Below, piece after piece: positions 33,548-44,773 of a stretch of 49,633 nucleotides of DNA. This stretch comes from Mogibacterium sp. (GTDB lineage: Bacteria > Bacillota > Clostridia > Peptostreptococcales > Anaerovoracaceae): positions 1 to 49,633 of the forward strand of contig JAFRKO010000035.1 of the NCBI GenBank assembly GCA_017431685.1, read 5' to 3'. Below the pieces are notes generated by a model, which worked only from the letters and a program-made list of their open reading frames with translations, ran no database searches and had not been told where the DNA came from. The first letter of the stretch is position 1, and every line of letters begins with the position of its first letter. The translations under genes were made by a program, and so were the position numbers.

Positions 33548-33553
33548 GTAAAC

Positions 33554-33659: not shown

Positions 33660-33694
33660 GGACGCCCCGAACACTGAAAGAAAGGATGAACATT

Positions 33695-34738
33695 ATGAGA
33701 AAACTGGCAAGCATACAAAGGATATGGAAGATAGAGCCGATCGAAGGGGCTGACAGGATAGAACTTGCGCATGTGCTGGGTTGGCAATGCGTTGTGAACA
33801 AAGGTCAGTTCAAGGAGCAGGACCTTGCTGTATATTTCGAAGTAGACAGCTTCCTGCCGATCCGCCCTGAGTTCGAATTCATGAGGGCGTCAAGCTATAA
33901 GAATACCAATATAATGGGAGAAGGATTCAGGCTCAGAACAATGAAGTTCAGAGGGCAGATCTCGCAGGGACTGCTCCTGCCTGTATCGGAGTTCCCGGAG
34001 ATCCCGGCAGAGGCGGAACTTGGCACAGATGTATCCGAGGTCATCGGTGTGAGAAAGTGGGAGATCGAAGAGAAAATCACTACAGGGGGAACAGTTATAG
34101 GAACTCTTCCGTATGACATCCCTCACACTGATGAGACGAGGGTACAGACAAAACCTGGTCTTATACAGGCATTTGCAGGACTTGAGTACTACATCTCAAC
34201 AAAGATGGATGGATCTTCGCATTCGATAGGTCTCGATGAAGACGGATTCCATGTGACCGGCCATAACTATGAATACAAAGACGATGGGACTAGTGCATTC
34301 TATGAACTCATCAATAAGCGCGGTATCAGGGAAAAACTCGAAGCATTCGCTGAAGAGAACGGGCTCAGGACCATCACACTGCAAGGCGAGCTGTGTGCGC
34401 CGGGCATCCAGAAGAACCCGCTGAAGCTGACCTCACCTGAATGGTATGTATTCACGGTCAGAGAGGACGGTAAAAGAGTCGGCCTTGAAAGGATGCTCAA
34501 AGTATGCGAAGCACTTCAGATAGAGCATGTCCCGATCGAAGAGACAGGTTTCGACCTTCCATCGAAGTACCCTACGGTGGATGCGCTCCTTGAGCGTGCT
34601 GACGGAGAATATCCGAAAGGCGGCAAGAAGGAAGGCATCGTTATCAGACCGACAGAACCTGTATACTGTGAACTGATCAGCGCATCTCTTTCCATGAAGG
34701 TTGTCAGCAATAAATACCTGCTGAAGAAGGAAAAGTAA
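33695..34738 (+). CDS. RNA ligase, DRB0094/DraRnl (Rnl5) type
   Basis: A 347-residue ATP-dependent RNA ligase that seals 3'-OH/5'-phosphate nicks. Residues 1-120 match the N-terminal OB-type domain of the Deinococcus-type ligases (LASIQRIWKIEPIEGADRIE, AVYFEVDSFLPI). Nucleotidyltransferase motifs: I KMDGSS (nucleotidyl-Lys 170), LQGELCAPGIQKNPL near 229-243, IV KEGIVIRP (312-319), V KVVSNKYL (335-342). The motif set is complete. ATG 33695 is preferred over ATG 33686 because GAAAGAAAGG then sits at proper spacing. It is first in a run of RNA-repair genes. Confidence 0.9.
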   Translation: MRKLASIQRIWKIEPIEGADRIELAHVLGWQCVVNKGQFKEQDLAVYFEVDSFLPIRPEFEFMRASSYKNTNIMGEGFRLRTMKFRGQISQGLLLPVSEFPEIPAEAELGTDVSEVIGVRKWEIEEKITTGGTVIGTLPYDIPHTDETRVQTKPGLIQAFAGLEYYISTKMDGSSHSIGLDEDGFHVTGHNYEYKDDGTSAFYELINKRGIREKLEAFAEENGLRTITLQGELCAPGIQKNPLKLTSPEWYVFTVREDGKRVGLERMLKVCEALQIEHVPIEETGFDLPSKYPTVDALLERADGEYPKGGKKEGIVIRPTEPVYCELISASLSMKVVSNKYLLKKEK

Positions 34739-34753
34739 AGGAATCGGAAGAAT

Positions 34754-35290
34754 ATGAATGAGCCTAAGATCTTTATCACTGCGGATCTGCATCTGGGACA
34801 TGCGAATATCATCAGATATTGCGGCAGGCCATATCGGGATTTCAATGAAATGAACGAAGATCTGATCCGCAGATGGAACAGTGTCGTGTCAGATAATGAC
34901 AGAGTTTTCTTCCTCGGTGATTTTGCTCTTGGCGATACGGAAAAGACGATCCGTTGGGGACAAAGGCTCAATGGACGAAAGGTCATGATATATGGCAATC
35001 ATGATCATCATAAGCCAAAGGTATACTATGAGGCCGGTTTTGAGCACGTATCAAAGTGGCCGATCGTTATCCAGAACCGATTCCTGCTGTCGCACGCCCC
35101 GATGTTCGCAGGATCTGACAGCGGAGTGAATCCCGGTGAACTTATCAACATCCACGGCCACATCCATGATAAGATCGACCAGGGACCTACTGTCAGTGCG
35201 AAGTCCGCGTGTGTCTGCGTAGAAAGATGGGACTATACGCCTGTAGAATTAAGGGTCCTGGAACAGGAGATCCGGAAAGCCTCGAAATAA
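34754..35290 (+). CDS. Calcineurin-like metallophosphoesterase
   Basis: A 178-residue two-metal phosphoesterase. The motifs are TADLHLGH (metal-binding Asp/His), FFLGDFALGD, YGNHDHH, LLSHAPMF and INIHGHIHD, a complete set. Such small enzymes include 2',3'-cyclic phosphodiesterases and nucleotide or end-processing phosphatases. It lies 15 nt after the RNA ligase and upstream of rtcB, so I infer it trims cyclic phosphate or phosphate ends so that one of the two ligases can seal them. Direct evidence for the substrate is lacking. Confidence 0.85.
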   Translation: MNEPKIFITADLHLGHANIIRYCGRPYRDFNEMNEDLIRRWNSVVSDNDRVFFLGDFALGDTEKTIRWGQRLNGRKVMIYGNHDHHKPKVYYEAGFEHVSKWPIVIQNRFLLSHAPMFAGSDSGVNPGELINIHGHIHDKIDQGPTVSAKSACVCVERWDYTPVELRVLEQEIRKASK

Positions 35291-35402
35291 TAGGTTTAAA
35301 CCACAGGGTTAATATACATATCTTGACACATATGGTATATTGATTGCGGAAAAGAAGCTGCGAATGCGGCAATCAACTATTAATAAGAGGAACACAAAAC
35401 AA

Positions 35403-35531
35403 ATGTTATATCTACACTTTGCAGTCAAGAGCATAAATACAGAAACGAAACCGCAGGGTATTGACCTGATGGGACGCTGCTTTGTGTGCAAAAATGAGAC
35501 AAGTAGAAGGAGTGTGCGGCATGTGAGTTAG
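35403..35531 (+). CDS. 42-aa leader peptide of the rtcB attenuator
   Basis: A small frame, MLYLHFAVKSINTETK through RCFVCKNETSRRSVRHVS, preceded by AGAGGAA. It is homologous to the 41-aa frame at 39240: both share an M-Y start, a VxSI segment and FVCK followed by Glu two codons on. Codons for the NETSR part contain TGAGACAAG (35495-35503), which is complementary to the 5' arm of the terminator before rtcB. A translating ribosome would cover this strand and favour termination; stalling further upstream would free it. Confidence 0.6.
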   Translation: MLYLHFAVKSINTETKPQGIDLMGRCFVCKNETSRRSVRHVS

Positions 35532-35597
35532 GTGCCGGGCATATTGGATAGACTGTTAACATCCGCTTGTCTCAAAGAAGAGATGAGCGGATTTTTT
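35495..35597 (+). promoter_or_regulatory. Transcription attenuator upstream of rtcB
   Basis: Antiterminator strand TGAGACAAG (35495-35503) pairs over 9 bp with CTTGTCTCA (35566-35574). The latter is part of the terminator stem ATCCGCTTGTCTC/GAGATGAGCGGAT (35561-35592), followed by TTTTT. The two folds exclude each other. The rtcB ribosome binding site CGGAGG follows directly. The same design recurs at 39328-39432 with compensating G-U pairs. Confidence 0.75.
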
Positions 35598-35613
35598 AAT
35601 CGGAGGAAAAGAA

Positions 35614-36813
35614 ATGTTAGAGATCAAGGGCAAAGTGAATACAGCTGTCTGCTTTGCCAGAGTAATAGAAGATGAGGCGATCGAGCAGATCCGTCGCATG
35701 TGCGATACCGAGATGACGAGAGGAAGTCAGATCAGGATCATGCCTGACGTGCACGCCGGAAAGGGCTGCACCATCGGCACGACCATGACCATCACAGATA
35801 AGGCAGTGCCAAACGTCGTCGGCGTAGATATCGGCTGCGGCATGTACACAGTCAAGCTCGGCAAGGTAAACATCGACTTCGAGAAGGTCGATGAAGCATG
35901 CCATATCATCCCATCAGGCTTCGCCACCTGGGAAGGAGTGAAGTGGCCGTTCGACCTGACAGAGCTGAGATGCTACAGAGAGCTAAGAGATGCCAAGAGA
36001 CTGAACAGATCTCTCGGTACGCTTGGCGGAGGCAACCACTTCATCGAGATAGACGAATCTGCGGATGGTACAAAGTATCTCGTGATCCACTCAGGCTCGA
36101 GAAATCTCGGCAAGCAGGTCGCTGAGTACTACCAACAGCTCGCCATAGACCTGAACCACGGCAAGGAGGAGTACTTTGCAAAGCGTGATCAGATCATCGA
36201 GGAATACAAGGCTGCAGGCAGAAAGAGCGAGATCCAGGCTGCACTGAAAGCCATCAAGTGGGAGAAGAAGGATGCAACAGTTCCTGATGACCTTTGTTAC
36301 CTGTACGGCAGCTATCTCGACGATTATCTGCATGATGTAGAGATCTGCCAGGCCTTCGCAAAACTGAGCAGAGAGAAGATGGCTGAAGTGATACTCGAGC
36401 ATACAGGACTCGAGATGATCGAAGCCTTCCACACAATCCATAACTATATCGATACAGACGAGATGATCCTCAGAAAAGGGGCCATCGCAGCCCACGAAGG
36501 TGAGCTCGTACTGATCCCGATCAATATGAGAGACGGATCAGTCCTGGCATACGGCAAGGGAAACCCTGACTGGAACTACTCAGCGCCGCACGGCGCAGGA
36601 CGCATCATGTCGAGAACGAAGGCTAAAGATGTCATCGAGATGGAAGACTACAGAAAAGCAATGGATGGCATTTACACCACATCTGTAAGTACAGCAACTT
36701 TGGACGAAGCGCCGATGGCATACAAGTCACTCGAAGACATCATCGATGTCATCGAGGAGTCAGTAGACGTAATAGAAGTATTAAAACCAATATTCAATTA
36801 TAAGGCAGGCTAG
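35614..36813 (+). CDS. rtcB: RtcB RNA-splicing ligase
   Basis: A 399-residue GTP/Mn-dependent ligase joining RNA 3'-phosphate or 2',3'-cyclic phosphate ends to 5'-OH ends, the type left by tRNA anticodon nucleases and toxins. Motifs: DVHAGKGCTIG (45-55), VGVDIGCGM (69-77; Cys 75 metal ligand), GGGNHFIEI (138-146), HSGSRNLG (159-166), IHNYID (275-280) and HGAGR (326-330), with His 326 the expected guanylylated residue. All are intact. No archease gene is nearby. The gene sits behind an attenuator and just upstream of the tRNA genes, which argues for tRNA repair. Confidence 0.95.
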   Translation: MLEIKGKVNTAVCFARVIEDEAIEQIRRMCDTEMTRGSQIRIMPDVHAGKGCTIGTTMTITDKAVPNVVGVDIGCGMYTVKLGKVNIDFEKVDEACHIIPSGFATWEGVKWPFDLTELRCYRELRDAKRLNRSLGTLGGGNHFIEIDESADGTKYLVIHSGSRNLGKQVAEYYQQLAIDLNHGKEEYFAKRDQIIEEYKAAGRKSEIQAALKAIKWEKKDATVPDDLCYLYGSYLDDYLHDVEICQAFAKLSREKMAEVILEHTGLEMIEAFHTIHNYIDTDEMILRKGAIAAHEGELVLIPINMRDGSVLAYGKGNPDWNYSAPHGAGRIMSRTKAKDVIEMEDYRKAMDGIYTTSVSTATLDEAPMAYKSLEDIIDVIEESVDVIEVLKPIFNYKAG

Positions 36814-36824
36814 GCCGGTACTTT

Positions 36825-36851
36825 CTTTCCGGCCTGGACATGGCCGGAAAG
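36825..36851 (+). promoter_or_regulatory. Hairpin masking the ribosome binding site of the first XRE gene
   Basis: CTTTCCGGCC pairs perfectly with GGCCGGAAAG over a 7-nt loop. The 3' arm contains the GGAAAGGA-type ribosome binding site of the gene at 36865. It starts 12 nt after rtcB and could set the expression ratio of the two genes. Confidence 0.5.
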
Positions 36852-36864
36852 GACGGACAATGCA

Positions 36865-37206
36865 ATGAACATGAGAGCGGTCGGTGTAACAAGAGTGCCC
36901 GTCATCGACCTCAGAGCAACAGGGCAGAACATCAAGAACCTCAGGACAGCTGCAGGTGTTTCTGTAAGAGACCTCCAGATGATCCTTGGTTTCACTAACC
37001 CGCAGGCTATCTACAAGTGGCAGAACGGTGACTGCATGCCAACGATCGACAACCTCGTGATCCTTGCAGCGGTACTCGGTGTCACAGTAGACGAGATCCT
37101 TGTCACTGATGAGGATCCCGCCGACGGAGATGTGGTTATCAAAGGTTCAGTAATATTACAAGCGGAGCTCATGGCGTGCTCGCACGTCGTTGACGGAGCG
37201 CAGTAA
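36865..37206 (+). CDS. XRE-family regulator, paralogue 1 of the tRNA region
   Basis: A 113-residue protein with a Cro/C1-type helix-turn-helix in residues about 18-72: GQNIKNLRTAAGVSVRDLQM, LGFTNPQAIYKWQNGDCMPT, DNLVILAAVLGVTVDEIL. It is clearly paralogous to the protein at 39447 (shared PVIDL/PAINL, GFTNPQAIY and IDNL-ILAA-LG segments). The C-terminal 35 residues differ. It is the last protein gene before the first tRNA block, 51 nt after rtcB, and could regulate the leader promoters or the tRNA operon. Confidence 0.85.
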   Translation: MNMRAVGVTRVPVIDLRATGQNIKNLRTAAGVSVRDLQMILGFTNPQAIYKWQNGDCMPTIDNLVILAAVLGVTVDEILVTDEDPADGDVVIKGSVILQAELMACSHVVDGAQ

Positions 37207-37231
37207 TACAACGAAGTTATAACAGGCATAA

Positions 37232-37284
37232 GTGTGCAGTGGTGACGACTGCTGCACACATGCACTCGGCTCAGTGATGAGCCG
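37232..37284 (+). other. Two hairpins before the first tRNA
   Basis: GTGTGCAG/CTGCACAC (37232-37259) and CGGCTCA/TGAGCCG (37267-37284) lie between the XRE gene and tRNA-Gly. They lack U-tracts, so processing sites or 5' boundary structures are more likely than terminators. Confidence 0.4.
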
Positions 37285-37289
37285 GAATG

Positions 37290-37365
37290 AGTGGCATTAG
37301 TGTAATGGCCAGCATATCAGTCTTCCAAACTGATGGTATGGGTTCAAGTCCCATATGCCGCTCCA
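37290..37365 (+). tRNA. tRNA-Gly (TCC)
   Basis: Cloverleaf with acceptor AGTGGCA/TGCCGCT, anticodon loop CTTCCAA and encoded CCA. First of 28 tRNAs in the array. It reads GGA/GGG glycine codons. Confidence 0.93.
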
Positions 37366-37368
37366 TAA

Positions 37369-37445
37369 GCTCCAGTATCCCAATCGGTAGAGGAGATGGA
37401 CTGAGAGTCCATACAGTACAGGTTCGAATCCTGTGTGGAGCACCA
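37369..37445 (+). tRNA. tRNA-Leu (GAG), short variable loop
   Basis: Acceptor GCTCCAG/GTGGAGC (last pair G-G mismatch), anticodon stem ATGGA/TCCAT with loop CTGAGAG, T-arm ACAGG/CCTGT, discriminator A, encoded CCA. The variable loop is only 5 nt, whereas bacterial leucine tRNAs normally have a long variable arm. Confidence 0.85.
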
Positions 37446-37449
37446 ATTT

Positions 37450-37525
37450 GTGACAGTAGTTCAGTCGGCAGAATATCGGCTTGCCAAGTCGAAGGTCACG
37501 GGTTCAAGCCCCGTCTGTCACTCCA
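37450..37525 (+). tRNA. tRNA-Gly (GCC)
   Basis: Acceptor GTGACAG/CTGTCAC perfect, anticodon loop TTGCCAA, encoded CCA. Second glycine isoacceptor, reading GGC/GGU. Confidence 0.94.
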
Positions 37526-37530
37526 GTTAT

Positions 37531-37607
37531 GGGCCTGTAGCTTAGACAGGGAAAGCATCTGCCTTGCAAGCAGAAAGACGTGGGTTCAAGCCCCACTGGG
37601 TCCACCA
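37531..37607 (+). tRNA. tRNA-Ala (TGC)
   Basis: Acceptor GGGCCTG/TGGGTCC with G-U pairs, anticodon stem TCTGC/GCAGA with loop CTTGCAA, encoded CCA. Confidence 0.94.
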
Positions 37608-37612
37608 ATCAT

Positions 37613-37690
37613 CGGAGCGTAGCTCAGTTTGGCTAGAGCGTCCGGCCTGGGACCGGAAAGTCGGGAGTTCGAGTCTCTCCACTCCGACCA
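37613..37690 (+). tRNA. tRNA-Pro (TGG)
   Basis: Acceptor CGGAGCG/CACTCCG, anticodon stem TCCGG/CCGGA with loop CCTGGGA, encoded CCA. Confidence 0.94.
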
Positions 37691-37695
37691 CTTAT

Positions 37696-37780
37696 CGGTA
37701 GGTAGCGTAGCGGCGAGCGCAGGGGTCTGTAAAACCCTGACACAGAAACATCGGTGGTTCGAGTCCACCCCTGCCGACCA
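37696..37780 (+). tRNA. tRNA-Tyr (GTA)
   Basis: Acceptor CGGTAGG/CCTGCCG, loop CTGTAAA, and the long variable arm expected of bacterial tRNA-Tyr. CCA is encoded. Confidence 0.94.
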
Positions 37781-37785
37781 AAATG

Positions 37786-37873
37786 GAGAGGTAACCCTAA
37801 TGGTAAGGGAGCGGTTTGCTAAACCGTCAGTAGCCCTTAAGGCGTGGAGGTTCAAGTCCTCTTCTCTCCGCCA
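37786..37873 (+). tRNA. tRNA-Ser (GCT)
   Basis: Acceptor GGAGAGG/TCTCTCC, loop TTGCTAA, long variable arm, discriminator G and encoded CCA. Reads AGC/AGU. Confidence 0.94.
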
Positions 37874-37877
37874 TCAC

Positions 37878-37966
37878 GGATGGTTACCGAAACTGGTTAT
37901 AACGGCGCGGTCCTGAAAACCGATGTGGCGAAAGCCCTGTGGGTTCGAATCCTACACCATCCGCCA
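37878..37966 (+). tRNA. tRNA-Ser (TGA)
   Basis: Acceptor GGATGGT/ACCATCC perfect, loop CCTGAAA, long variable arm GTGGCGAAAGCCC, discriminator G, encoded CCA. Reads UCN codons. Confidence 0.93.
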
Positions 37967-37970
37967 ACTT

Positions 37971-38049
37971 GCTCCAGTATCCCAATCCTGGCAGAGGAAA
38001 TGGCCTCAGACACCATCAAGTACAGGTTCGAGTCCTGTCTGGAGCACCA
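37971..38049 (+). tRNA. tRNA-Leu (CAG), short variable loop
   Basis: Acceptor GCTCCAG/CTGGAGC perfect, anticodon stem ATGGC/ACCAT (one C-A mismatch) with loop CTCAGAC, discriminator A, encoded CCA. The variable loop is 5 nt. Closely related to the Leu(GAG) and Leu(TAA) genes of this array. Confidence 0.8.
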
Positions 38050-38053
38050 TTAT

Positions 38054-38128
38054 ATCTCGTTCGTCTAAAGCAGAGGACGCGGAGCTACGGACTCCGTAAT
38101 ACGGGTTGGAATCCTGCACGGGATACCA
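38054..38128 (+). tRNA. tRNA-Arg (ACG)
   Basis: Acceptor ATCTCGT/ACGGGAT, anticodon stem CGGAG/CTCCG with loop CTACGGA, encoded CCA. The T-loop reads TTGGAAT instead of TTCGAAT and the T-stem is weakened. Confidence 0.85.
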
Positions 38129-38132
38129 ATAT

Positions 38133-38208
38133 GATTCTCTCGTCCAACTGGTAGGACACCGGCCTCTTAATCCGGGAGATGTGAGTTCGAATCTCACGGG
38201 GATCACCA
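38133..38208 (+). tRNA. tRNA-Lys (CTT)
   Basis: Acceptor GATTCTC/GGGGATC, loop CTCTTAA, encoded CCA. The innermost anticodon-stem pair is a C-T mismatch. Very similar to Lys(TTT) at 38338. Confidence 0.88.
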
Positions 38209-38217
38209 AACCGTCAT

Positions 38218-38248
38218 AAGGGATCCACCACCTACGGTGGTCCCCCTT
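38218..38248 (+). other. Stable hairpin between tRNA genes
   Basis: AAGGG...ACCACC-TAC-GGTGGT...CCCTT forms a nested stem in the 51-nt gap before tRNA-Thr. Probably a processing signal or internal attenuator of the tRNA transcript. Confidence 0.45.
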
Positions 38249-38259
38249 GTGACAAACAT

Positions 38260-38334
38260 GCTCCTGTGGCGCAATGGTAACGCGGCTGCCTTGTAAGCAG
38301 CGGACTGTCGGTTCGAATCCGACTGGGAGCTCCA
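38260..38334 (+). tRNA. tRNA-Thr (TGT)
   Basis: Acceptor GCTCCTG/TGGGAGC, anticodon stem GCTGC/GCAGC with loop CTTGTAA, encoded CCA. Confidence 0.94.
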
Positions 38335-38337
38335 TAT

Positions 38338-38412
38338 GATTCTCTCGTCTAATGGAAGGATACCGGACTTTTAATCCGGGAGATGTGGGTTCGAATCCCA
38401 CGGGGATCACCA
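38338..38412 (+). tRNA. tRNA-Lys (TTT)
   Basis: Acceptor GATTCTC/GGGGATC, anticodon stem CCGGA/TCCGG with loop CTTTTAA, encoded CCA. It lies 5 nt before the large non-coding RNA. Confidence 0.93.
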
Positions 38413-38417
38413 TTACA

Positions 38418-38990
38418 ATCGAATATCTTCTTATGCTTTTGATCCAACTCGGTGCAGAAGGCTTTACAACCTGCCGAGGCGCGATGGAATTCTTAGTGAG
38501 CATCCCGAGGGATACCTTGGGAGAGGAGCTGTTGTATATCAGCGATGGTATACAGGGAGGCGGAAACCGCCAACAGAAAAGTCGTGGCACCGTGTGATAG
38601 CGAGATAAAAGTTACTGGACTCGCGGGGCGGGCAATAGACGCTCCAGTGGAGAATAATCCTGTATGCCTTGTCCGTGGCTGGATGATGACACAGCAGGAA
38701 AGCCACTAACCGCCTGAGAGTTGATGCCCGGAAACGGGATATAACGCGAGAAACAGGTGCGAGTAGCCAAAGCTCTCGGTGAAGAACCGGTCTGTATCAA
38801 CCGCTAGATACTCAAGCTGAAGTTTGGTGAAAGTTATGGGTATCAATCCCATGTGGTCACGGCGAAAGCGATGTGAAAATGTTAGGGGTCGCTCCCCGAA
38901 GCACAGCGTCACATCACCACTGAACGAACATTATCGATGATTATGCGGCATCCCGAAGGGGAGGATGAAAGGCATAAGAGGGTATTCGAT
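38418..38990 (+). ncRNA. Ornate large non-coding RNA, ROOL/GOLLD-like candidate
   Basis: 573 nt without a plausible gene, closed by a 19-bp terminal helix: ATCGAATATCTTCTTATGC (38418-38436) pairs with 38972-38990 with two G-U pairs and no mismatch. Inside are many compact hairpins, several with GNRA or similar loops: GGCGGAAACCGCC, CCCGGAAACGGG, GGCGAAAGC-type and CCCGAAGGGG. Position within a tRNA array and a length near 580 nt match what is known of ROOL RNAs, which occur near tRNAs in phages and rumen bacteria; GOLLD RNAs are a longer alternative. The class assignment is inference from size, structure and context; the existence of a structured RNA is well supported. Confidence 0.7.
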
Positions 38991-38996
38991 CAAGAT

Positions 38997-39072
38997 GCTC
39001 CTGTATCCCAACGGTAGAGGAAGCGGTCTTAAAAACCGCACAGTGCAGGTTCGAATCCAGCCAGGAGCACCA
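38997..39072 (+). tRNA. tRNA-Leu (TAA), short variable loop
   Basis: Acceptor GCTCCTG/CAGGAGC perfect, anticodon stem GCGGT/ACCGC with loop CTTAAAA, T-stem with one A-A mismatch, discriminator A, encoded CCA. The variable loop is ACAGT (5 nt). It starts 6 nt after the large RNA. Confidence 0.85.
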
Positions 39073-39083
39073 GAAAACAATGA

Positions 39084-39160
39084 TGCGGAGTGGTAGCAGT
39101 GGTTAGCTCAGCAGCCTCATAAGCTGAAGGTCGAGGGTTCGAATCCCTCCTCCGCAACCA
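39084..39160 (+). tRNA. tRNA-Met (CAT), elongator type
   Basis: Acceptor TGCGGAG/CTCCGCA perfect, loop CTCATAA, encoded CCA. A paired 1-72 position and no G-C run in the anticodon stem argue against an initiator. An Ile(CAU) identity cannot be fully excluded, but a separate Ile(TAT) tRNA is present. Confidence 0.88.
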
Positions 39161-39239
39161 ATTATTAAACTACGACCTTACTATACAGAGACATGTTCCG
39201 GTGATATATTGATGCCGGATAAGGAAAGGAATCAAAGTA

Positions 39240-39365
39240 ATGGCTTACAGACTCGTATTTGTACAGAGCATCATATGCGAACAAGACTTCCATGTCATCG
39301 ATTGGGAGAATGATTTTGTGTGCAAATATGAGATGAGAGGGAAAGCCGTGGGGCAGCCTAGCTGA
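39240..39365 (+). CDS. 41-aa leader peptide of the second attenuator
   Basis: A small frame, MAYRLVFVQSIICEQDF ... NDFVCKYEMRGKAVGQPS, with the strong site AAGGAAAGG upstream. It is homologous to the leader peptide before rtcB (FVCK and the M-Y/V-SI start). Its codons around YEMR contain ATGAGATGAG, the antiterminator strand. No other function is apparent. Confidence 0.6.
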   Translation: MAYRLVFVQSIICEQDFHVIDWENDFVCKYEMRGKAVGQPS

Positions 39366-39432
39366 CAGCCTCACAGAAACAGATGACGATTTCATATCCG
39401 CTTGTCTCATATATGGGATAAGCGGATTTTTT
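39328..39432 (+). promoter_or_regulatory. Transcription attenuator upstream of the second XRE gene
   Basis: ATGAGATGAG (39328-39337) pairs over 10 bp, two of them G-U, with CTTGTCTCAT (39401-39410). The terminator ATCCGCTTGTCTC/GGGATAAGCGGAT (39396-39427) is followed by TTTTT. The pairing is conserved with the rtcB leader despite sequence change, which supports a real antiterminator/terminator switch. Confidence 0.75.
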
Positions 39433-39446
39433 ACGGGAGGAATGAA

Positions 39447-39758
39447 ATGCGTACCGGAGTAGCCGGCGGAAGAGTGCCGGCAATCAATCTTAAAAAAACA
39501 GGCGAGAATATCACGAGGATGAGGAAGGAAGCAGGGATCTCTGTCAGAGAGCTGCAGATCATGTTCGGATTCACAAATCCGCAGGCGATCTATAGCTGGC
39601 AGAGCGGAAAGAGTCTTCCGGCCGTGGATAACCTTATCATCCTGGCTGCGATCCTTGGGACTACCATCGATGAGATCATTTCCACGGAGGAAGATGATCA
39701 TGAAGATATCGGTGATGTCGAAGAAGGAATAGTGATCTTCACGCAAACAATTTCATAA
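39447..39758 (+). CDS. XRE-family regulator, paralogue 2 of the tRNA region
   Basis: A 103-residue protein. ATG 39447 follows GGGAGG by 6 nt. The helix-turn-helix is in residues about 17-70: GENITRMRKEAGISVRELQI, FGFTNPQAIYSWQSGKSLPA, DNLIILAAILGTTIDEII. It is paralogous to the protein at 36865. The acidic C-terminus (STEEDDHEDIGDVEEG) is different. It lies between tRNA-Met and tRNA-Asn; tRNA-Asn begins 5 nt after its stop, so it must share a transcript with downstream tRNAs. Control by an rtcB-like attenuator ties it to the same signal. Confidence 0.85.
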   Translation: MRTGVAGGRVPAINLKKTGENITRMRKEAGISVRELQIMFGFTNPQAIYSWQSGKSLPAVDNLIILAAILGTTIDEIISTEEDDHEDIGDVEEGIVIFTQTIS

Positions 39759-39763
39759 CCACG

Positions 39764-39839
39764 GTCTCTTAGCTCAATAGGTGGAGCGGCGCCCTGTTAA
39801 GGCGAGGGGTGCAGGTTCGATTCCTGCAGAGACCGCCAT
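39764..39839 (+). tRNA. tRNA-Asn (GTT)
   Basis: Acceptor GGTCTCT/AGAGACC perfect, loop CTGTTAA, encoded CCA. Confidence 0.94.
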
Positions 39840-39841
39840 AT

Positions 39842-39917
39842 GGTCTTCTCGTCTAAAGGATAGGACGTCGGGTTTTCATCCCGGAAATGTCGGGTTCAAG
39901 TCCCACGGAGATCACCA
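39842..39917 (+). tRNA. tRNA-Glu (TTC)
   Basis: Acceptor GGTCTTC/GGAGATC, anticodon stem TCGGG/CCCGG with loop TTTTCAT, encoded CCA. Confidence 0.92.
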
Positions 39918-39921
39918 ATAT

Positions 39922-39997
39922 GTCCCGTTAGTTCAACGGATCAGAACCTCGGTCTTCTAAACCGATAATGAGAGTTCGAGTCTCTCGCGGGATACCA
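39922..39997 (+). tRNA. tRNA-Arg (TCT)
   Basis: Acceptor GTCCCGT/GCGGGAT, anticodon stem TCGGT/ACCGA with loop CTTCTAA, encoded CCA. Reads AGA/AGG. Confidence 0.93.
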
Positions 39998-39998
39998 T

Positions 39999-40073
39999 GC
40001 TCTGATAGCTCAACGGGAGAGCGCCTGCCTTACAAGCAGGAGGGCGCAGGCTCAACACCTGCTCGGAGCACCA
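39999..40073 (+). tRNA. tRNA-Val (TAC)
   Basis: Acceptor GCTCTGA/TCGGAGC, anticodon stem CCTGC/GCAGG with loop CTTACAA, encoded CCA. The T-loop is CTCAACA, departing from the usual TTC-containing sequence. Confidence 0.88.
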
Positions 40074-40077
40074 ATGT

Positions 40078-40152
40078 GGTCTATTAGTATAACGGCCATT
40101 ATACCGGCTTGTCAGGCCGAAGATCCGGGTTCGATTCCCGGATAGACCGCCA
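40078..40152 (+). tRNA. tRNA-Asp (GTC)
   Basis: Acceptor GGTCTAT/ATAGACC perfect, loop TTGTCAG, T-arm CCGGG/CCCGG, encoded CCA. Confidence 0.94.
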
Positions 40153-40162
40153 TATACCATAT

Positions 40163-40238
40163 GCCCTGATAGTTCAACGGCGAGAACACCGGTCTCCAAA
40201 ACCGCAAGATGAGAGTTCGAATCTTTCTCAGGGTGCCA
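40163..40238 (+). tRNA. tRNA-Trp (CCA)
   Basis: Acceptor GCCCTGA/TCAGGGT, loop CTCCAAA, encoded CCA. Confidence 0.93.
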
Positions 40239-40266
40239 ATTCTTAAGGAGGGGAGGACATAAGAAT

Positions 40267-40761
40267 ATGTGGAATTCTGAGACATACGGACAGCTGGGTC
40301 TGAACGAGATCCCTGATAAGCTGATGCTTTTCTATGACCGAAATGCTGTATATGGAGAGCCAATGGAACTTACCATAGGTACAGATTCTCAGAACCATGC
40401 CTCAGGTACAAAGATCGTTACAGTGATCTCCATGATCTGCAAGGGCCATGGCGGGATATTCTTCTACGAGACAGAGTTCCGTGATCTCATCAAAGTGGTC
40501 AAGCAGAAGCTCGAAACTGAGACCTATATCAGCCTTGAGACTGCAAAGATGCTTCTGGATGAGTTGGACAACGGCGGCTACCGGATCCTCGTAGACAATT
40601 GTCCTCTCTCCATCCACATCGATGCAGGAAATGCACCGCAAGGAAAGACCAGAGATCTTATCCAGGGACTTACCGGATGGGTGCATGCGATGGGATATGA
40701 CTGCGAGGTAAAGCCGGATTCATATTCCGCATCGACTATAGCTGACAGGCTCAGTAAATAA
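40267..40761 (+). CDS. YkuK-like (DUF458) RNase H-fold protein
   Basis: A 164-residue protein resembling Bacillus YkuK, a predicted RNase H-like nuclease family. Key stretches: MELTIGTDSQNHASGTK near residue 32 (Asp-containing first strand), GHGGIFFYETEF near 59, LSIHIDAGNAPQGKTRDLI near 113-131 (second Asp strand), then GYDCEVKPDSYSASTIADR near 143-161. The acidic residues are at the positions expected for a metal-binding nuclease core. It is embedded in the tRNA array with AAGGAGGGG upstream. I infer a role in tRNA maturation, turnover or repair; this is untested. Confidence 0.8.
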   Translation: MWNSETYGQLGLNEIPDKLMLFYDRNAVYGEPMELTIGTDSQNHASGTKIVTVISMICKGHGGIFFYETEFRDLIKVVKQKLETETYISLETAKMLLDELDNGGYRILVDNCPLSIHIDAGNAPQGKTRDLIQGLTGWVHAMGYDCEVKPDSYSASTIADRLSK

Positions 40762-40762
40762 C

Positions 40763-40783
40763 CGGCGGTCATCGTGATCGCCG
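40763..40783 (+). other. Hairpin between the YkuK-like gene and tRNA-Gln
   Basis: CGGCGGTCA-TCG-TGATCGCCG, a 9-bp stem with a 3-nt loop, 2 nt after the stop codon and 5 nt before tRNA-Gln. No U-tract, so it is probably a processing site. Confidence 0.45.
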
Positions 40784-40787
40784 CTAT

Positions 40788-40861
40788 TGCCCCTTCGTCT
40801 AATGGCAGGACATCAGACTTTGATTCTGACGGTGTAGGTTCAAATCCTGCAGGGGCAGCCA
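40788..40861 (+). tRNA. tRNA-Gln (TTG)
   Basis: Acceptor TGCCCCT/AGGGGCA perfect, anticodon stem TCAGA/TCTGA with loop CTTTGAT, encoded CCA. Confidence 0.94.
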
Positions 40862-40867
40862 TAATAT

Positions 40868-40944
40868 ACGCACTTAACTCAGCGGTATAGAGTACCCGTC
40901 TGATACGCGGGCGGTCCGCAGTTCGAATCTGCGAGTGCGTACCA
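40868..40944 (+). tRNA. tRNA-Ile (GAT)
   Basis: Acceptor ACGCACT/AGTGCGT perfect, loop CTGATAC, T-arm GCAGT/CTGCG-type, encoded CCA. Confidence 0.92.
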
Positions 40945-40948
40945 ATAG

Positions 40949-41024
40949 GGTCCCTTCGTCTAAAGGGTAGGACACCAGACTCTCAATCTGGAAATGCCGG
41001 GTTCAAGTCCCGCGGGGATCACCA
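40949..41024 (+). tRNA. tRNA-Glu (CTC)
   Basis: Acceptor GGTCCCT/GGGGATC with G-U pairs, anticodon stem CCAGA/TCTGG with loop CTCTCAA, encoded CCA. Second glutamate isoacceptor. Confidence 0.92.
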
Positions 41025-41029
41025 CTTGT

Positions 41030-41105
41030 GTGGTCGGTAGCTTAATGGTAGAGCAGCGGATTGTGATTCCGTCCGGTGCAGGTTCAAATCCTGTCCTTCC
41101 ACCCA
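41030..41105 (+). tRNA. tRNA-His (GTG), degenerate acceptor stem
   Basis: Extra G at -1 facing C73, the histidine identity pair, loop TTGTGAT and encoded CCA. The acceptor stem has two adjacent mismatches (T4-T69 and C5-T68), so stability or editing is in question. Confidence 0.87.
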
Positions 41106-41110
41106 ATTAT

Positions 41111-41187
41111 GAGCACGTATCCGAGAGGCCTAAGGATGCAGGTTGCAACCCTGTTATTCGCTGGTTCGAATCCAGCCGTGCTCTCCA
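41111..41187 (+). tRNA. tRNA-Cys (GCA)
   Basis: Acceptor GAGCACG/CGTGCTC perfect, loop TTGCAAC, T-arm CTGG/CCAG, discriminator T, encoded CCA. Confidence 0.92.
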
Positions 41188-41192
41188 CATAT

Positions 41193-41268
41193 GGTAAAGT
41201 AGCTCAGCTGGTAGAGCGTTCGGTTGAAGCCCGAAAGGTCGCTGGTTCAATGCCAGCCTTTACCACCA
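41193..41268 (+). tRNA. tRNA-Phe (GAA)
   Basis: Acceptor GGTAAAG/CTTTACC perfect, loop TTGAAGC, encoded CCA. Confidence 0.94.
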
Positions 41269-41275
41269 TCAATAA

Positions 41276-41352
41276 TGGGGAGTAACTCAACGGTCAGAGT
41301 GGGGTCCTTATAAGGCTCTGGTAGCTCGGTTCAACTCCGGCCTCCCCAACCA
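41276..41352 (+). tRNA. tRNA-Ile (TAT)
   Basis: Acceptor TGGGGAG/CTCCCCA perfect, anticodon stem GGGTC/GGCTC (two G-U pairs) with loop CTTATAA, encoded CCA. It would read AUA directly, without the lysidine modification bacteria normally need. Confidence 0.87.
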
Positions 41353-41358
41353 TTATCA

Positions 41359-41403
41359 GCCCTGTGATGTGAATTTATCAGTTCACTTCGCAGGGCGTTT
41401 TGT
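41359..41403 (+). terminator. Intrinsic terminator of the tRNA array
   Basis: GCCCTGTGA...TTCGCAGGGC with an inner GTGAA/TTCAC stem, followed by GTTTTGT, 6 nt after the last tRNA. Confidence 0.8.
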
Positions 41404-41434
41404 ATGCAAAAAAATTTTTTCAAAATATTTTGAA

Positions 41435-41485
41435 AAAGAGGGGTGTCAAACCCGGTTTCTATTGCTCATAAGTGAGAGGACTTAT
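41435..41485 (+). repeat. Direct repeat copy B, right edge of the RNA-repair/tRNA region
   Basis: 51 nt identical to copy A at 33497-33547 except one base. A palindrome TTTTTCAAAA-TA-TTTTGAAAAA overlaps its start, and the sequence just before it looks like a remnant of the A/T-rich end of the sigma-like gene. Confidence 0.85.
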
Positions 41486-41489
41486 TAAA

Positions 41490-41885
41490 AACCTCTCGCG
41501 AACCTTAGAAAACTGAATACACATTCAATCAGGTACCTTCTCTGAGATATCGGCTAACACCCGTGAGCATGCAGGATCGATACGCCAGGACTACGCGAAA
41601 GCGTACGAGCGATCAAGGTCATGGATCCAAAAGGCAGCCAGCAACTGTTTTGTGCGATGACAGTCTCAGAGGACAATGATACTTCCGTCCAGCCACAGAC
41701 ATCGCAATGGGGGCGGCTCCGTAAGATCTGCGGAGAGGGGTAATGCCCTATGAGGGAGCATAGCTGACTCCCGCCTGACTGTTTCCCTGCGAACTGGGGG
41801 CGTCGTGGACAAATACAGGATCGAATCAATGGAAAAGACAACAGCGTGTCAGGGGACACATTTTGCGTCCCCGGCACGCTTTGCT
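41490..41885 (+). ncRNA. Second structured non-coding RNA candidate with terminator
   Basis: About 390 nt without a supported gene. Pairings seen: TACGC-GAAA-GCGTA, GATCG/CGATC, CTCCG/CGGAG, GGGAG/CTCCC, and a long-range CTCTGAGA/TCTCAGAG helix. A strong 14-bp hairpin (41843-41880: AGCGTGTC and GGGGAC pairing with GTCCCC and GGCACGCT) followed by TTGCTT would end the transcript. Near the start, CCTTAGAAAACTGAATAC resembles the conserved pre-23S spacer sequence of Firmicutes rRNA operons. No known RNA class was recognised. Confidence 0.5.
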
Positions 41886-41971
41886 TATATTACATTTTTC
41901 GACCTGTATCTGCGAATATCCAGTCCGGGGAAACTGTGTATTCAGTGAATGAGACAACGGAGGAAACGAAA

Positions 41972-42229
41972 ATGGCAAAACTCTTTGAGAACAACTACAA
42001 GCACAACCCATATGTATATGGAATGGTCAATGTGCTCTCAAGCTTCTGCAGAGATTACAACGAAGCGAACCGGGCACTGGAGAAGAACCCGAACGATACG
42101 CGCTGCATGATGGTCAGAGCCTACTGCGTAGACTTCGCCAACTGGCTGAGCGAGACAACCGAGATGGACTACGGCACAGTCGGTCAGCTGATCGTAAGGA
42201 TGATGGAGGTCGGAAATGGCGAGGAATAA
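41972..42229 (+). CDS. Small hypothetical protein
   Basis: An 85-residue protein starting MAKLFENNYKHNPYVYGM at ATG 41972 (ACGGAGGAAA upstream). It is helical and soluble (FCRDYNEANRALEKNPNDTR). I do not recognise it. Its end overlaps the next gene by 14 nt, indicating coupled translation in a small regulator operon ahead of mazF, xis and int. Confidence 0.65.
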   Translation: MAKLFENNYKHNPYVYGMVNVLSSFCRDYNEANRALEKNPNDTRCMMVRAYCVDFANWLSETTEMDYGTVGQLIVRMMEVGNGEE

Positions 42230-42536
42230 CTACAGAGATGACGGCATCATCTGGTTCGAGGATCAGATAAGCGAGATGGCAGACCTCCTGATCACTGTAC
42301 AGGGCATCCGCTACATATATATGAAGAGACACGACCACAGCTGGATCAGCAGGGTCGGTGACGAAGGAATGAGGTTCGCTCTTTGGAGCATGTCAGAGAT
42401 ACAGCTAAGGATCATCGAAGCTCTGGTATTCGAAGATAAGACCGTGACGGATGTACGCAGAGAAATGGATCTCACGATCACAGAGATCCGCGTGGAAATA
42501 AGAGATATGAGAAAGGCGCTGCTTGCGGCGATTTGA
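42216..42536 (+). CDS. Sigma region 4/helix-turn-helix-like small protein
   Basis: A 106-residue protein. The C-terminal half (WSMSEIQLRIIEALVFEDK then TVTDVRREMDLTITEIRVEIRDMRKALLAA) reads like a sigma region 4 or similar helix-turn-helix. The N-terminal half is unassigned. It is coupled to the 85-aa gene. Such small regulators are common before xis/int in Gram-positive ICEs. Confidence 0.6.
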   Translation: MARNNYRDDGIIWFEDQISEMADLLITVQGIRYIYMKRHDHSWISRVGDEGMRFALWSMSEIQLRIIEALVFEDKTVTDVRREMDLTITEIRVEIRDMRKALLAAI

Positions 42537-42548
42537 TAGGTAACAGAA

Positions 42549-42860
42549 ATGAAGACATTGAAGATAGTAAAGATTGACGACCCGGAAGCGCTGGATCATA
42601 TCGCCAGGTGTGAGATCTATCAGGCGATCAGCGATTACGAGATATGGAGAAGGATCATGCTGAAAGATCCTTCAGACACTGAAGCATATCAGATGATGGA
42701 GGACTGCGCAGAATTCATATTGACGGACCCGAGAGTGGAACGCTGCATCAAGGACCCTGCCGGATTCCTCTGGAAGCTGGGCATGAAGGTAGATAAAGAT
42801 ATCAAAAAGTGGAGGAAGGAATGCAGACAGCAGACAAGTGGAAAAAACCCTTCAATGTAG
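42549..42860 (+). CDS. Small hypothetical protein overlapping mazF
   Basis: A 103-residue helical, charged protein (DPEALDHIARCEIYQAISDYEIWRR ... KVDKDIKKWRKECRQQ). Its last 40 nt overlap the start of the MazF-like gene. The weak site AGGTAACAG precedes the ATG. It occupies the place of an antitoxin but does not resemble MazE, so antitoxin function is only a positional guess. Confidence 0.5.
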   Translation: MKTLKIVKIDDPEALDHIARCEIYQAISDYEIWRRIMLKDPSDTEAYQMMEDCAEFILTDPRVERCIKDPAGFLWKLGMKVDKDIKKWRKECRQQTSGKNPSM

Positions 42861-43219
42861 AAAGGGGAGATATATACCTTGCGGACCTGGGAACAGCTGA
42901 CGAAGTAGTAGGTTCAGAACAATTTGGGATCCGTCCTGTGATCGCGACCCAATCCAATTTTCTGAATAAAAAATCTCCTACTGTCATAGTCGCTGTGATA
43001 ACGAGCGAACTGAAAAAAATCGATCTTGATACGCATATCCTGCTTCCATCCCTGAAAGGTTTGCCTCTTAGGTCGATGGTTTGTACAGAGCAGCGTTTCA
43101 CCATTGACAAGCAGCGATTGTTGAAATACTGCTGTTCCGTTCCCGCCCCTGTTATGGAGGAAGTGACCCGGGCCTGTCGCAAGGCTGAAGAAGCTGACAA
43201 GAAACGCCGAAAGCACTGA
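42821..43219 (+). CDS. mazF: MazF/PemK-type endoribonuclease toxin
   Basis: A 132-residue protein of the MazF fold. N-terminal VERGDIYLADLG, then GSEQFGIRPVIATQSNFLN and SPTVIVAVITSELKKIDLDTHILL, are the standard blocks. MazF enzymes cut single-stranded RNA at short sequences, leaving 2',3'-cyclic phosphate and 5'-OH ends, the ends RtcB joins. ATG 42821 is chosen because GGAGGAAGG lies just upstream; a GTG at 42809 is possible. No clear MazE is adjacent. Presence in the same element as rtcB is notable. Confidence 0.88.
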   Translation: MQTADKWKKPFNVERGDIYLADLGTADEVVGSEQFGIRPVIATQSNFLNKKSPTVIVAVITSELKKIDLDTHILLPSLKGLPLRSMVCTEQRFTIDKQRLLKYCCSVPAPVMEEVTRACRKAEEADKKRRKH

Positions 43220-43312
43220 AATTTCAACGTTTGTCAAGTACACAATTTCGACTCTCGTGGCGTGGAAAAGAAAGGAGACAGGGGATTACGATAGCGGCAT
43301 CCCGGGAAATAT

Positions 43313-43549
43313 ATGGATATTACAGATCTGGCGATAGACAAGCCGTATCTCTCAAGCGAGGTACGATTCTATACGATCTCGGATCTGACTCAGATGCTTG
43401 GATGGAGTCACGGAACAGTGGAAAAGCTTTTCAACGACCCGAAATTCCCTGCTGCAGATTTTGGCAGACAGAAGGTCGTGGAGGCGCATGCTCTGATCGA
43501 CTACTTCTCCAAGAGACATGAGAAAGCGAGGGATCGTTTCTGGAAGTAA
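43313..43549 (+). CDS. xis: Excisionase (Xis-like helix-turn-helix)
   Basis: A 78-residue small DNA-binding protein directly before the integrase. FYTISDLTQMLGWSHGTVEKLFNDPKFPAADFGRQKVVEAHALIDYF is a MerR-like winged helix typical of Tn916-type excisionases and phage helix-turn-helix-17 proteins. It would bend DNA at the attachment site and favour excision. The ribosome binding site is weak. It ends 12 nt before the integrase. Confidence 0.8.
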   Translation: MDITDLAIDKPYLSSEVRFYTISDLTQMLGWSHGTVEKLFNDPKFPAADFGRQKVVEAHALIDYFSKRHEKARDRFWK

Positions 43550-43561
43550 AGGAGATCGATA

Positions 43562-44773
43562 ATGGCTACAAAAGCTACGAATAGAAAAAAGGCAGAATAT
43601 GCAACCGGTACGCTGGGAGCGAACAACGGGAAAAGAGCGGAGTTCGGAGCGGGATCATTTAGGTACACAGACTCAGGAAAGGTTGAATACAGATTCGGGT
43701 ATACGGATGAATTCGGAAAGCCTCAGAGAAAGTCATTTACATGCGATGACCTGAACGAATGTATCGCAAAGGCGGAGGCTTTCAAGAAGAGGATGGAACT
43801 CCTGAGGGATGACATCAATCCGGATGAATCGATTTGCAAGGTCCTCAGGAGAGCTTATCAAAAGGATTATGATATGGGATTCGTCAGAGAGCAGGGATAC
43901 TGCAGGAATCTCGCGAACCTCAGGATACTGGAGAAGTCCAGGATAGCGAAAATGCCCATAAGGGAAGTGACAAAAAACGATGTGACAAAATACTTCGCTA
44001 CTCTGACGGATTACTCTGAGAGCATGGTGAAGAAGCTATATGCTCAGGTGAAGCTGGCGTTCTCGATCGCTCTTATGGAAGGCCTGATAACTGAGAACTT
44101 CATGGAGCAAAGAGATATGAAGTGCCCGAAGGTGGGCAAGCCCAAAAAGAAAGTCAGCGGGCTTACGACGGAGCAGCAGAAAAAGTTCGTGGAGGCTCTT
44201 GAGACTACAGATCCGCCGAACGGACGCAATGATTATCGGCTCCAGCTGATGATCGAGTTGTACAGCGGTATGAGGATGGGTGAGATCAATGCCCTTCGCA
44301 GGGAGGACATCGATTTCAAGAAGAATGTCATCCATGTGAGGAGGACCATATCCAGGGGCTTTGAGTACAGGGAGTTCCTCAACGATACTACCAAGACTGA
44401 CGCCGGCCAGAGAGATGTCCCTATTAGCAGCAAGCTGAGGCCATATCTTGAGCAGGCGTTGGAGAGGCAGAAGCCGAATGCTGATGATCTGATATTCTAC
44501 GATTACTGCAAGAACTCTCTCGTAACGACATCGCAGGTCAACTGCTATTACAAGAGAGTGTGCAGGAAAATCGGCATCCCGGCTGACGGACAGCATGCAC
44601 TGAGACACACGTTCGCTACCAGATGCATCGAGTCCGGCATCCCGGCGATAGTGCTCAAGAACTGGCTCGGCCACACCAACATACACATCACACTCGACAC
44701 ATATACAGACGTATTTGACAGCCTCAACAACGAAGCTGTAAACAATTTCGATAAATACCTTGAAGCAATGTAG
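43562..44773 (+). CDS. int: Tyrosine integrase (Tn916/lambda type)
   Basis: A 403-residue site-specific recombinase. An N-terminal arm-binding region (FGAGSFRYTDSGKVEYRFGYTD), a core-binding SAM-like domain (about 90-180) and a catalytic domain with Arg 238 (SGMRMGE), H345-x-x-R348 (HALRHTFATR), His 371 (LGHTNIHITLD) and nucleophile Tyr 381. All catalytic residues are present. AAAGGAG precedes the ATG. In this ICE class the attachment site is usually just beyond int, so the element end probably lies between 44774 and about 45080. Confidence 0.95.
   Translation: MATKATNRKKAEYATGTLGANNGKRAEFGAGSFRYTDSGKVEYRFGYTDEFGKPQRKSFTCDDLNECIAKAEAFKKRMELLRDDINPDESICKVLRRAYQKDYDMGFVREQGYCRNLANLRILEKSRIAKMPIREVTKNDVTKYFATLTDYSESMVKKLYAQVKLAFSIALMEGLITENFMEQRDMKCPKVGKPKKKVSGLTTEQQKKFVEALETTDPPNGRNDYRLQLMIELYSGMRMGEINALRREDIDFKKNVIHVRRTISRGFEYREFLNDTTKTDAGQRDVPISSKLRPYLEQALERQKPNADDLIFYDYCKNSLVTTSQVNCYYKRVCRKIGIPADGQHALRHTFATRCIESGIPAIVLKNWLGHTNIHITLDTYTDVFDSLNNEAVNNFDKYLEAM

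Follow-up and report, generated by a model that had tools for sequence, protein, structure and literature searches.

Contig JAFRKO010000035.1 of Mogibacterium sp. raises the question of why DNA that carries conjugation genes should also hold tRNA genes for all 20 amino acids beside genes for RNA ligases, and what would switch such a set on. The window, i.e., the whole stretch of 49,633 nucleotides that we analysed (bases 1-49633 of contig C66 in genome G000, a draft of 2.74 Mb in 74 contigs), contains this combination in one island, and we consider it probable, from sequence comparison, that the island is a mobile, stall-induced operon for emergency tRNA replacement and RNA repair, carried by a conjugative element. 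The original prediction, made from the letters of the window, had proposed a tRNA replacement pool against tRNA-cutting defence; it had noticed neither the two similar, conserved leaders before rtcB and before a second helix-turn-helix (HTH) gene nor the ROOL RNA inside the array.

ARAGORN called exactly 28 tRNA genes, all on the plus strand between 37291 and 41352, with the anticodons that had been listed before and with all 20 amino acids covered, and 28 of 28 end in an encoded CCA, as claimed. Rfam tRNA matches were obtained for all 28 genes (36.2-68.5 bits, against a cut-off of 29). The genes are arranged in blocks of 13, 2, 6 and 7, separated by the ROOL RNA, by a leader with an HTH gene and by an RNase-H-like gene (ORF, open reading frame):

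37291-38412, plus strand: tRNA block 1, 13 tRNAs from Gly-TCC to Lys-TTT (ARAGORN, Rfam)
38424-38981, plus strand: ROOL RNA (RF03087), full length, within the array (Rfam, 305.9 bits against a gathering score of 99.1)
38997-39160, plus strand: tRNA-Leu(TAA) and tRNA-Met(CAT) (ARAGORN, Rfam)
39447-39758, plus strand: HTH_3 protein 2, paralogue of HTH_3 protein 1 (Pfam PF01381 for ORF 39402-39758)
39763-40238, plus strand: tRNA block 2, Asn, Glu, Arg, Val, Asp and Trp (ARAGORN, Rfam)
40267-40761, plus strand: RNase-H-like protein PF04308, between tRNA blocks (Pfam, E 1.2e-36)
40788-41352, plus strand: tRNA block 3, Gln, Ile, Glu, His, Cys, Phe and Ile(TAT) (ARAGORN, Rfam)

At 6.9 tRNAs per kb (28 in 4.06 kb), this is a tRNA array unit, which we take to be at least 20 clustered tRNA genes at a density of at least two per kb. 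Under standard wobble rules, the array can read every sense codon except CUA (Leu) and CGG (Arg), and it is a near-complete, flat, one-of-each spare tRNA set. Phage and plasmid arrays hold 21-37 tRNA genes at 2-9 per kb (PMC5966550). The array is not the normal chromosomal tRNA cluster of the host, given that its tRNAs are 57-79% identical to host tRNAs with the same anticodon, a comparison that covers the 22 of 28 array tRNAs for which such a host tRNA was found in the incomplete draft genome. A search of the whole genome yielded 67 Rfam tRNA matches, 40 on other contigs and 27, rather than 28, on the window contig, the weakest window tRNA being missed in this search. A sister array in genome G286 has the identical 28 tRNAs in identical order, and an array in G265 has 28 tRNAs in a somewhat different set.

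Upstream of the array on the same strand, we identified the following genes:

33686-34738, plus strand: ATP-dependent RNA ligase, Rnl5/NgrRnl-like (Pfam PHA02142 OB and RNA_ligase)
34754-35290, plus strand: calcineurin-like phosphoesterase (Pfam PF00149, 27.5 bits against a cut-off of 21.5)
35614-36813, plus strand: RtcB RNA ligase (Pfam PF01139, E 4.8e-55)
36865-37206, plus strand: HTH_3 protein 1 (Pfam PF01381)

The product of the first gene has the KxDG motif and the N-terminal OB domain of Rnl5-type ligases; its closest PDB relative is the Naegleria gruberi RNA ligase 5cot (E 1.2e-50), with the KMDGSS motif aligned, and it scores 136.4 bits against TIGR02306, under the cut-off of 151.15. 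By analogy, it presumably seals 3'-OH and 5'-phosphate ends. The RtcB motifs CGM, GGGNHF, HSGSR and HGAGR, with the Cys and His residues that we take to be catalytic, align with the solved RtcB 4dwr. Both ligases thus retain their catalytic motifs. The two HTH_3 proteins match each other at 59% identity. Relatives of the Rnl5-like ligase, 51-80% identical, also occur in 26 IMG/VR viral loci (L054-L079), of which 8 have 1-7 ARAGORN hits. A second rtcB in the window's own genome (L151 5533-6882, contig C28) is 88% identical and has its own attenuator (see below) and no tRNAs in the 14 kb inspected, and the rtcB relative in G286 (L085 and L093, contig C18) was flagged with a TAG.

The two leaders contain these features:

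35403-35531, plus strand: leader ORF 1, 42 amino acids (aa), 19 of the 20 amino acids used, with coding constraint
35495-35503, plus strand: putative antiterminator strand 1 (TGAGACAAG), complementary to the terminator 5' arm at 35566-35574
35561-35597, plus strand: predicted intrinsic terminator 1, before rtcB, a 13-bp hairpin and six T
39240-39365, plus strand: leader ORF 2, 41 aa, 19 of the 20 amino acids used, with coding constraint
39326-39337, plus strand: putative antiterminator strand 2, 12 nt, 12 contiguous pairs with 39401-39412
39396-39432, plus strand: predicted intrinsic terminator 2, before HTH gene 2 and the last 13 tRNAs, a hairpin and T-run

Among rtcB-type leader ORFs (n = 9), 84 of 197 single-base codon differences are synonymous (0.43, compared to 0.24 expected), and among array-type leader ORFs (n = 7), 68 of 160 (0.43, compared to 0.21 expected); shifted frames give synonymous fractions of 0.18-0.31, all these counts being pairwise, and hence non-independent, comparisons of related sequences. 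Judged by the codon differences, the leader ORFs are under coding constraint and hence are predicted to be translated. A scan for terminators in loci with rtcB, RNA ligase or ROOL returned 24 places, 23 of which have an upstream complement of 8-12 bases at a distance of 42-71 nt. In an alignment of 24 leaders, 96.3% of the cells of a 9-pair antiterminator helix are paired, as opposed to 25-60% when the partner is slid by 1-3 columns, and three pairs changed on both sides. The columns of the hairpin core and T-run are invariant in the 24 aligned sequences, which were themselves chosen by the terminator pattern. Shuffled sequences paired as well as the real ones in 5 of 200 cases for leader 1 and in 1 of 200 for leader 2.

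In attenuators of amino-acid and antibiotic-resistance genes, a leader ORF, an antiterminator and a terminator are combined, and the position of the ribosome decides between the two structures. With an ORF, a terminator and a mutually exclusive antiterminator that overlaps the ORF, the leaders look like ribosome-dependent attenuators of this kind, except that they stand before tRNA genes and an RNA ligase and that the leader samples nearly all amino acids. The 16 leader peptides examined contain 17-20 kinds of amino acid (three hold all 20), compared to about 16.3 expected for random peptides of matched length and composition, a diversity that is suggestive of a general shortage sensor. The leaders have no Rfam match in the whole window at the gathering score, nor, for leader 2 only, in 37200-42300 at E up to 1, and we found no report of attenuator control of tRNA arrays or rtcB in the open-access literature searched.

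We built a covariance model of the leader (R1), which matches leader 1 at 35456-35597 (133.7 bits) and leader 2 at 39293-39432 (120.8 bits), both sequences being in its training set, and ran it on 349 genomes of the family, counting matches with E below 1e-11 as strong. At E 0.01, 67 of the 349 genomes have a match, and there are 44 strong places in 22 genomes. The closest feature downstream, among the tRNAs and six island proteins that were scored (other ORFs were unclassified and some contigs end early), is rtcB in 18 of these places, an HTH gene in 17, a tRNA in 7, a phosphoesterase gene in 1 (its product 29% identical to that of the window) and an RNase-H-like gene in 1 (locus L197). A tRNA on the same strand lies within 2.5 kb in 33 of the 44. 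Outside the training set, i.e., where the core of the match is absent from it, 17 of 19 places are followed by tRNAs within 2.5 kb, and the remaining two by an RNase-H-like gene and rtcB, respectively; five cases have tRNAs only 3-66 nt past the match. A terminator 5' arm is recognisable in 41 of the 44 strong matches; its complement is spaced by 54-66 nt in 37 of the 41 and beats 95% of shuffles in 33 of the 41. As a control, 398 genomes of the phylum contained only three strong matches, all in the window's own genome, and the remaining 19 weak loci scored 26-36.5 bits, with a tRNA in 1 of 19 (1.5 kb flanks).

Similar associations were seen around RtcB relatives in named genomes (the best 80 of 275 were used), from Lachnospiraceae, Blautia, Oribacterium and other Clostridia. 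Of the 80 loci, 54 show an R1 match no more than 700 nt upstream of rtcB (E up to 0.001, many of these matches being weak); tRNAs lie nearby in 37, leader and tRNAs occur together in 26, and the tRNAs stand between leader and rtcB in 10. Small sets of 1-8 tRNAs, present in 30 of the 80 loci, most often contain Glu-TTC (20 loci), Tyr-GTA (15), Ser-GCT (11), Lys-TTT (9) and Glu-CTC (7). A viral origin of the attenuator was considered and rejected: an exact 16-base pattern occurs in five viral stretches, two of which match R1 at 16.9 and 13.7 bits, and none has tRNAs. The 26 viral loci that carry a related RNA ligase gave no R1 match at E 1e-4, and neither the leader DNA (blastn against plasmids and phages) nor the leader peptide (tblastn against plasmids) gave a match.

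In the mechanism that we infer, stalling would be the signal, transcriptional read-through the response, and replacement and repair of tRNAs the benefit. During healthy translation, the ribosome would trail RNA polymerase through the leader ORF and cover the antiterminator strand; the terminator would then form and silence rtcB and the HTH genes as well as much of the tRNA array. If charged tRNAs ran short, for example under attack by an anticodon nuclease, the ribosome would be expected to stall soon after entering the leader, whose codons call for almost all amino acids; the freed antiterminator strand would pair with the terminator 5' arm, and the polymerase would read on. Read-through would supply RtcB, which would rejoin cut tRNAs, and fresh, sequence-divergent tRNAs, which would replace lost ones, and the upstream Rnl5-like ligase and phosphoesterase may handle other end chemistries. 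The earlier proposal of a replacement pool, next to RNA ligases and carried by a conjugative element, is partly supported, in that the ligase motifs, the near-complete set and the small rtcB-linked sets fit it. Tyr and Lys tRNAs, both found in the small sets, are targets of tRNA-destroying defences (retron-Eco7, PrrC; PMC11555353), in agreement with the proposed adversary; tRNA-cutting defence is, however, one of several possible causes of shortage.

The closest functional precedent is the trn operon of Anabaena sp. PCC 7120, in which 26 tRNAs on a megaplasmid are repressed, together with rtcB, by TrcR, and both are induced by translation-targeting antibiotics (PMC10272220); it is the only accessory tRNA array with a known trigger in the literature covered. 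The systems share a large accessory tRNA array on an extrachromosomal element, which in Anabaena is normally silent and is stress-induced with rtcB. They differ in control, which in Anabaena depends on a ribbon-helix-helix (RHH) repressor and here apparently on cis-acting leaders: within the island, there is no TrcR-type RHH repressor, both local regulators being HTH_3 proteins. Moreover, rtcB is chromosomal in Anabaena and adjoins the array here, the Mogibacterium element additionally has the Rnl5-like ligase, ROOL and genes for a type IV secretion system (T4SS), and the main text of PMC10272220 contains neither 'attenuat' nor 'leader'. What is new relative to this precedent is the attenuator, the link to ROOL, the conjugative setting and the class-I-sized tRNA-Leu described below. 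Mycobacterial phages and plasmids also carry tRNA arrays, with 26-37 tRNAs on plasmids (PMC5966550, PMC12803027), for which an antidefence role has been proposed (PMC12803027), and GOLLD, a large structured RNA, is reported from Mycobacterium arrays (PMC7549688); the island has ROOL in place of GOLLD and adds a ligase operon and attenuators, and 'RtcB' is absent from the main texts of PMC5966550 and PMC12803027. A precedent for the logic is Salmonella rsr-yrlBA-rtcBA with RtcR, where rtcBA is induced by damaged tRNAs and the sensor is a protein that binds tRNA halves (PMC7790460, with no 'tRNA gene', 'attenuat' or 'leader peptide' in its main text). Finally, replacement tRNAs of phages counter depletion by nucleases (tRNA-Tyr against retron-Eco7, tRNA-Lys against PrrC; PMC10264068, PMC11555353), but there the carrier is a phage rather than a conjugative element, and the abstracts mention no stall switch. 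If the proposed mechanism is true, tRNA arrays and RNA repair are tied in one operon, and a simple cis-acting switch would explain how an element can afford to carry a complete spare tRNA set and deploy it only in emergencies; such a switch also offers a reporter-testable route to the purpose of tRNA arrays.

The CAT tRNA and the leucine tRNAs of the window have unusual bodies. The original prediction had seen no initiator tRNA, and the tRNA-Met(CAT) at 39084-39160 indeed lacks the GGG/CCC anticodon stem, but its body is closest to the host initiator (score 0.78, whereas the two remaining CAT tRNAs of the host score 0.62 and 0.57); it has T1-A72. The three window tRNA-Leu genes (37369-37445, 37971-38049 and 38997-39072) are 76-79 nt long and lack a long variable arm. 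Across 17 attenuator-linked loci, several of them close relatives, tRNA-Leu is at most 79 nt long in 36 of 36 genes, compared to 83-89 nt in the host (n = 5) and 81-89 nt in nine inspected rtcB loci of named genomes.

Several observations weigh against the interpretation as a stall-induced replacement and repair operon. Class-I-sized tRNA-Leu may not be charged with leucine, and 43 of the 80 rtcB loci in named genomes have no tRNA nearby, some of them being cut by contig ends. The alignment of 24 leaders omits L130, the sole place without a complement, and adds another leader from G294; on this alignment, four pairing measures were reached in 8 of 500 column shuffles, further pair types were not above shuffles (217 of 500 as high), and the terminator 5' arm is also kept constant by the terminator itself. 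Among the strong matches, 3 of 44 lack a recognisable 5' arm and 8 of the other 41 fail the shuffle test, and beyond the family no more than 17 of the 43 weaker matches have an antiterminator better than 95% of shuffles (p = 0.05). Predicted stabilities favour the terminator over the antiterminator duplex in 40 of 41 leaders, and the switch must therefore work kinetically. Other leaders fall to 15 or 16 kinds of amino acid, and the leaders are related. The source genome is a draft that, like its nearest relatives, was probably assembled from a metagenome.

We further weighed the interpretation against four alternatives. Attenuators with short leader ORFs sense ribosome stalling generally, and the island might be a broad antibiotic or translation-stress operon that any ribosome inhibitor triggers and in which tRNA-cutting enzymes play no special part. 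Its model would be the Anabaena trn operon, for which elongation inhibitors act as inducers (PMC10272220). The presence of two ligase classes and of divergent spare tRNAs, however, points to loss of tRNA, and the small sets favour Glu-TTC, Tyr-GTA, Ser-GCT and Lys-TTT, so that we regard this explanation as rather unlikely. Less likely still is a constitutive codon-compensation or fitness array, whose tRNAs would aid the element's own genes in varied hosts and whose leaders would be ordinary regulation: seven T4SS and island genes depart somewhat from host ORFs in their codon usage (correlation 0.84, compared to 0.94 for the whole element) and are richer in AAG, ATC, GAG and CAG codons, but we judged the case weak on this comparison, the array being flat, with one of each tRNA, rather than weighted to over-used codons; in addition, terminators directly precede tRNA genes or their operons, and rtcB loci with only 1-8 tRNAs exist (30 of 80).

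Feedback specific to each tRNA, in which every leader senses a shortage of the tRNA under its control as in the attenuation of amino-acid operons, would suit the cases in which a single tRNA follows a leader match (Leu-CAG after 32 nt and Lys-CTT after 19 nt). Neither of these two leaders has a run of the matching amino acid, though, and the 16 leaders sample 17-20 amino acids, making such feedback improbable. That the island is a decaying phage or integrative remnant without current function appears very improbable: relatives of the RNA ligase do occur in 26 IMG/VR loci, 8 with few tRNAs, and the alignment with the G286 integrase relative is confined to residues 4-377 of 403, but 28 of 28 tRNAs score above the cut-off, the order of the 28 tRNAs is kept in G286, the leader ORFs show coding constraint, and the ligase motifs are intact. 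Beyond the stall-induced operon that we prefer, the island might represent a new regulatory class, namely a mobile attenuator that, with nearly all amino acids sampled by its leader peptide, detects the loss of any tRNA and releases transferable replacement tRNAs and ligases across many Clostridia, with tRNAs reshaped against nucleases (class-I tRNA-Leu, initiator-bodied tRNA-Met) and with ROOL, transcribed together with them, serving as an RNA shelter or sink; we offer this wider proposal tentatively and think it doubtful.

The ROOL match spans positions 1-574 of the 574-position covariance model. ROOL is best viewed as an optional passenger of the array on comparative grounds, because the sister array with the identical 28 tRNAs lacks it: the G286 array has no ROOL match, and tRNA-Lys is followed there by tRNA-Leu over a 5-base spacer. 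The G265 array has no ROOL match either. G301 has ROOL at the equivalent array position, and G294, G315 and G270 have it between other tRNAs. Across the family, 10 of 296 genomes have a ROOL match with E of at most 0.001, which in 8 of these genomes exceeds the cut-off, and 7 of 11 inspected loci have no tRNA in flanks of up to 1.5 kb. Contig C13 of G288 contains two tandem ROOL RNAs (L083 11840-12392 and 12491-13060), with no tRNAs within the 20 kb inspected. ROOL is often found near tRNA islands of phages and prophages (RF03087; PMC12286853), and here it likewise lies beside tRNAs, but on a T4SS-linked element; the main text of PMC12286853 contains neither 'plasmid' nor 'conjugative', and we found no report of ROOL inside a T4SS-linked array in the open-access literature searched. 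The context of this nanocage RNA here shows natural variation from one sister array to the next.

The conjugative setting is given by these genes:

12016-18494, plus strand: conjugation genes, parts of a Gram-positive T4SS (Pfam)
12016-12453, plus strand: PrgI (Pfam)
14242-16716, plus strand: VirB4/TraG (Pfam)
16725-18494, plus strand: CHAP hydrolase (Pfam)
43562-44773, plus strand: tyrosine integrase (Pfam PF00589)

The original prediction had labelled the element an integrative and conjugative element (ICE), and the integrase and T4SS ATPase (VirB4) on one contig agree with this label, which we regard as tentative; no relaxase family was among the Pfam hits of the subset of window ORFs scanned, on a contig that may be cut, and no att sites were established (the 3' end of the G286 tRNA-Thr has no second copy in the G286 contig or the window). 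The G286 contig with the sister array also encodes a 68% identical integrase relative, aligned over residues 4-377 of 403. VirB4 shares a contig with an array in 4 of the 18 genomes searched (G000:C66, G301:C136, G304:C45 and G270:C16); the search of the G286 genome gave no VirB4 match. The island at 32354-43696 is common to G286, with 94-99% DNA identity across three main aligned pieces, and G301 shares most of the island up to its contig end as well as the T4SS segment 15115-19491 (97%).

Between the T4SS genes and the island, 19753-29658 holds defence cargo, with restriction-modification-like genes, a GmrSD/BREX-Orf5-like protein and matches to DolA/DolB (Dodola); G301 has the sequences on either side of this stretch, for which itself no match above 120 bases was seen there. 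Low-GC genes with weak JukB and IetA/TRIP13-like matches follow the integrase (45728-48169), and a group II intron reverse transcriptase with an intron domain match lies near the left end (566-2535). Downstream of the array are a pemK RNA motif (RF02913, 41673-41753) and a PemK/MazF-like toxin gene (42809-43219). The island is flanked by a 77-bp direct repeat (91%; 33476-33552 and 41414-41489), one copy before the RNA ligase gene and the other before the pemK region; the repeat is possibly a shared promoter or operator.

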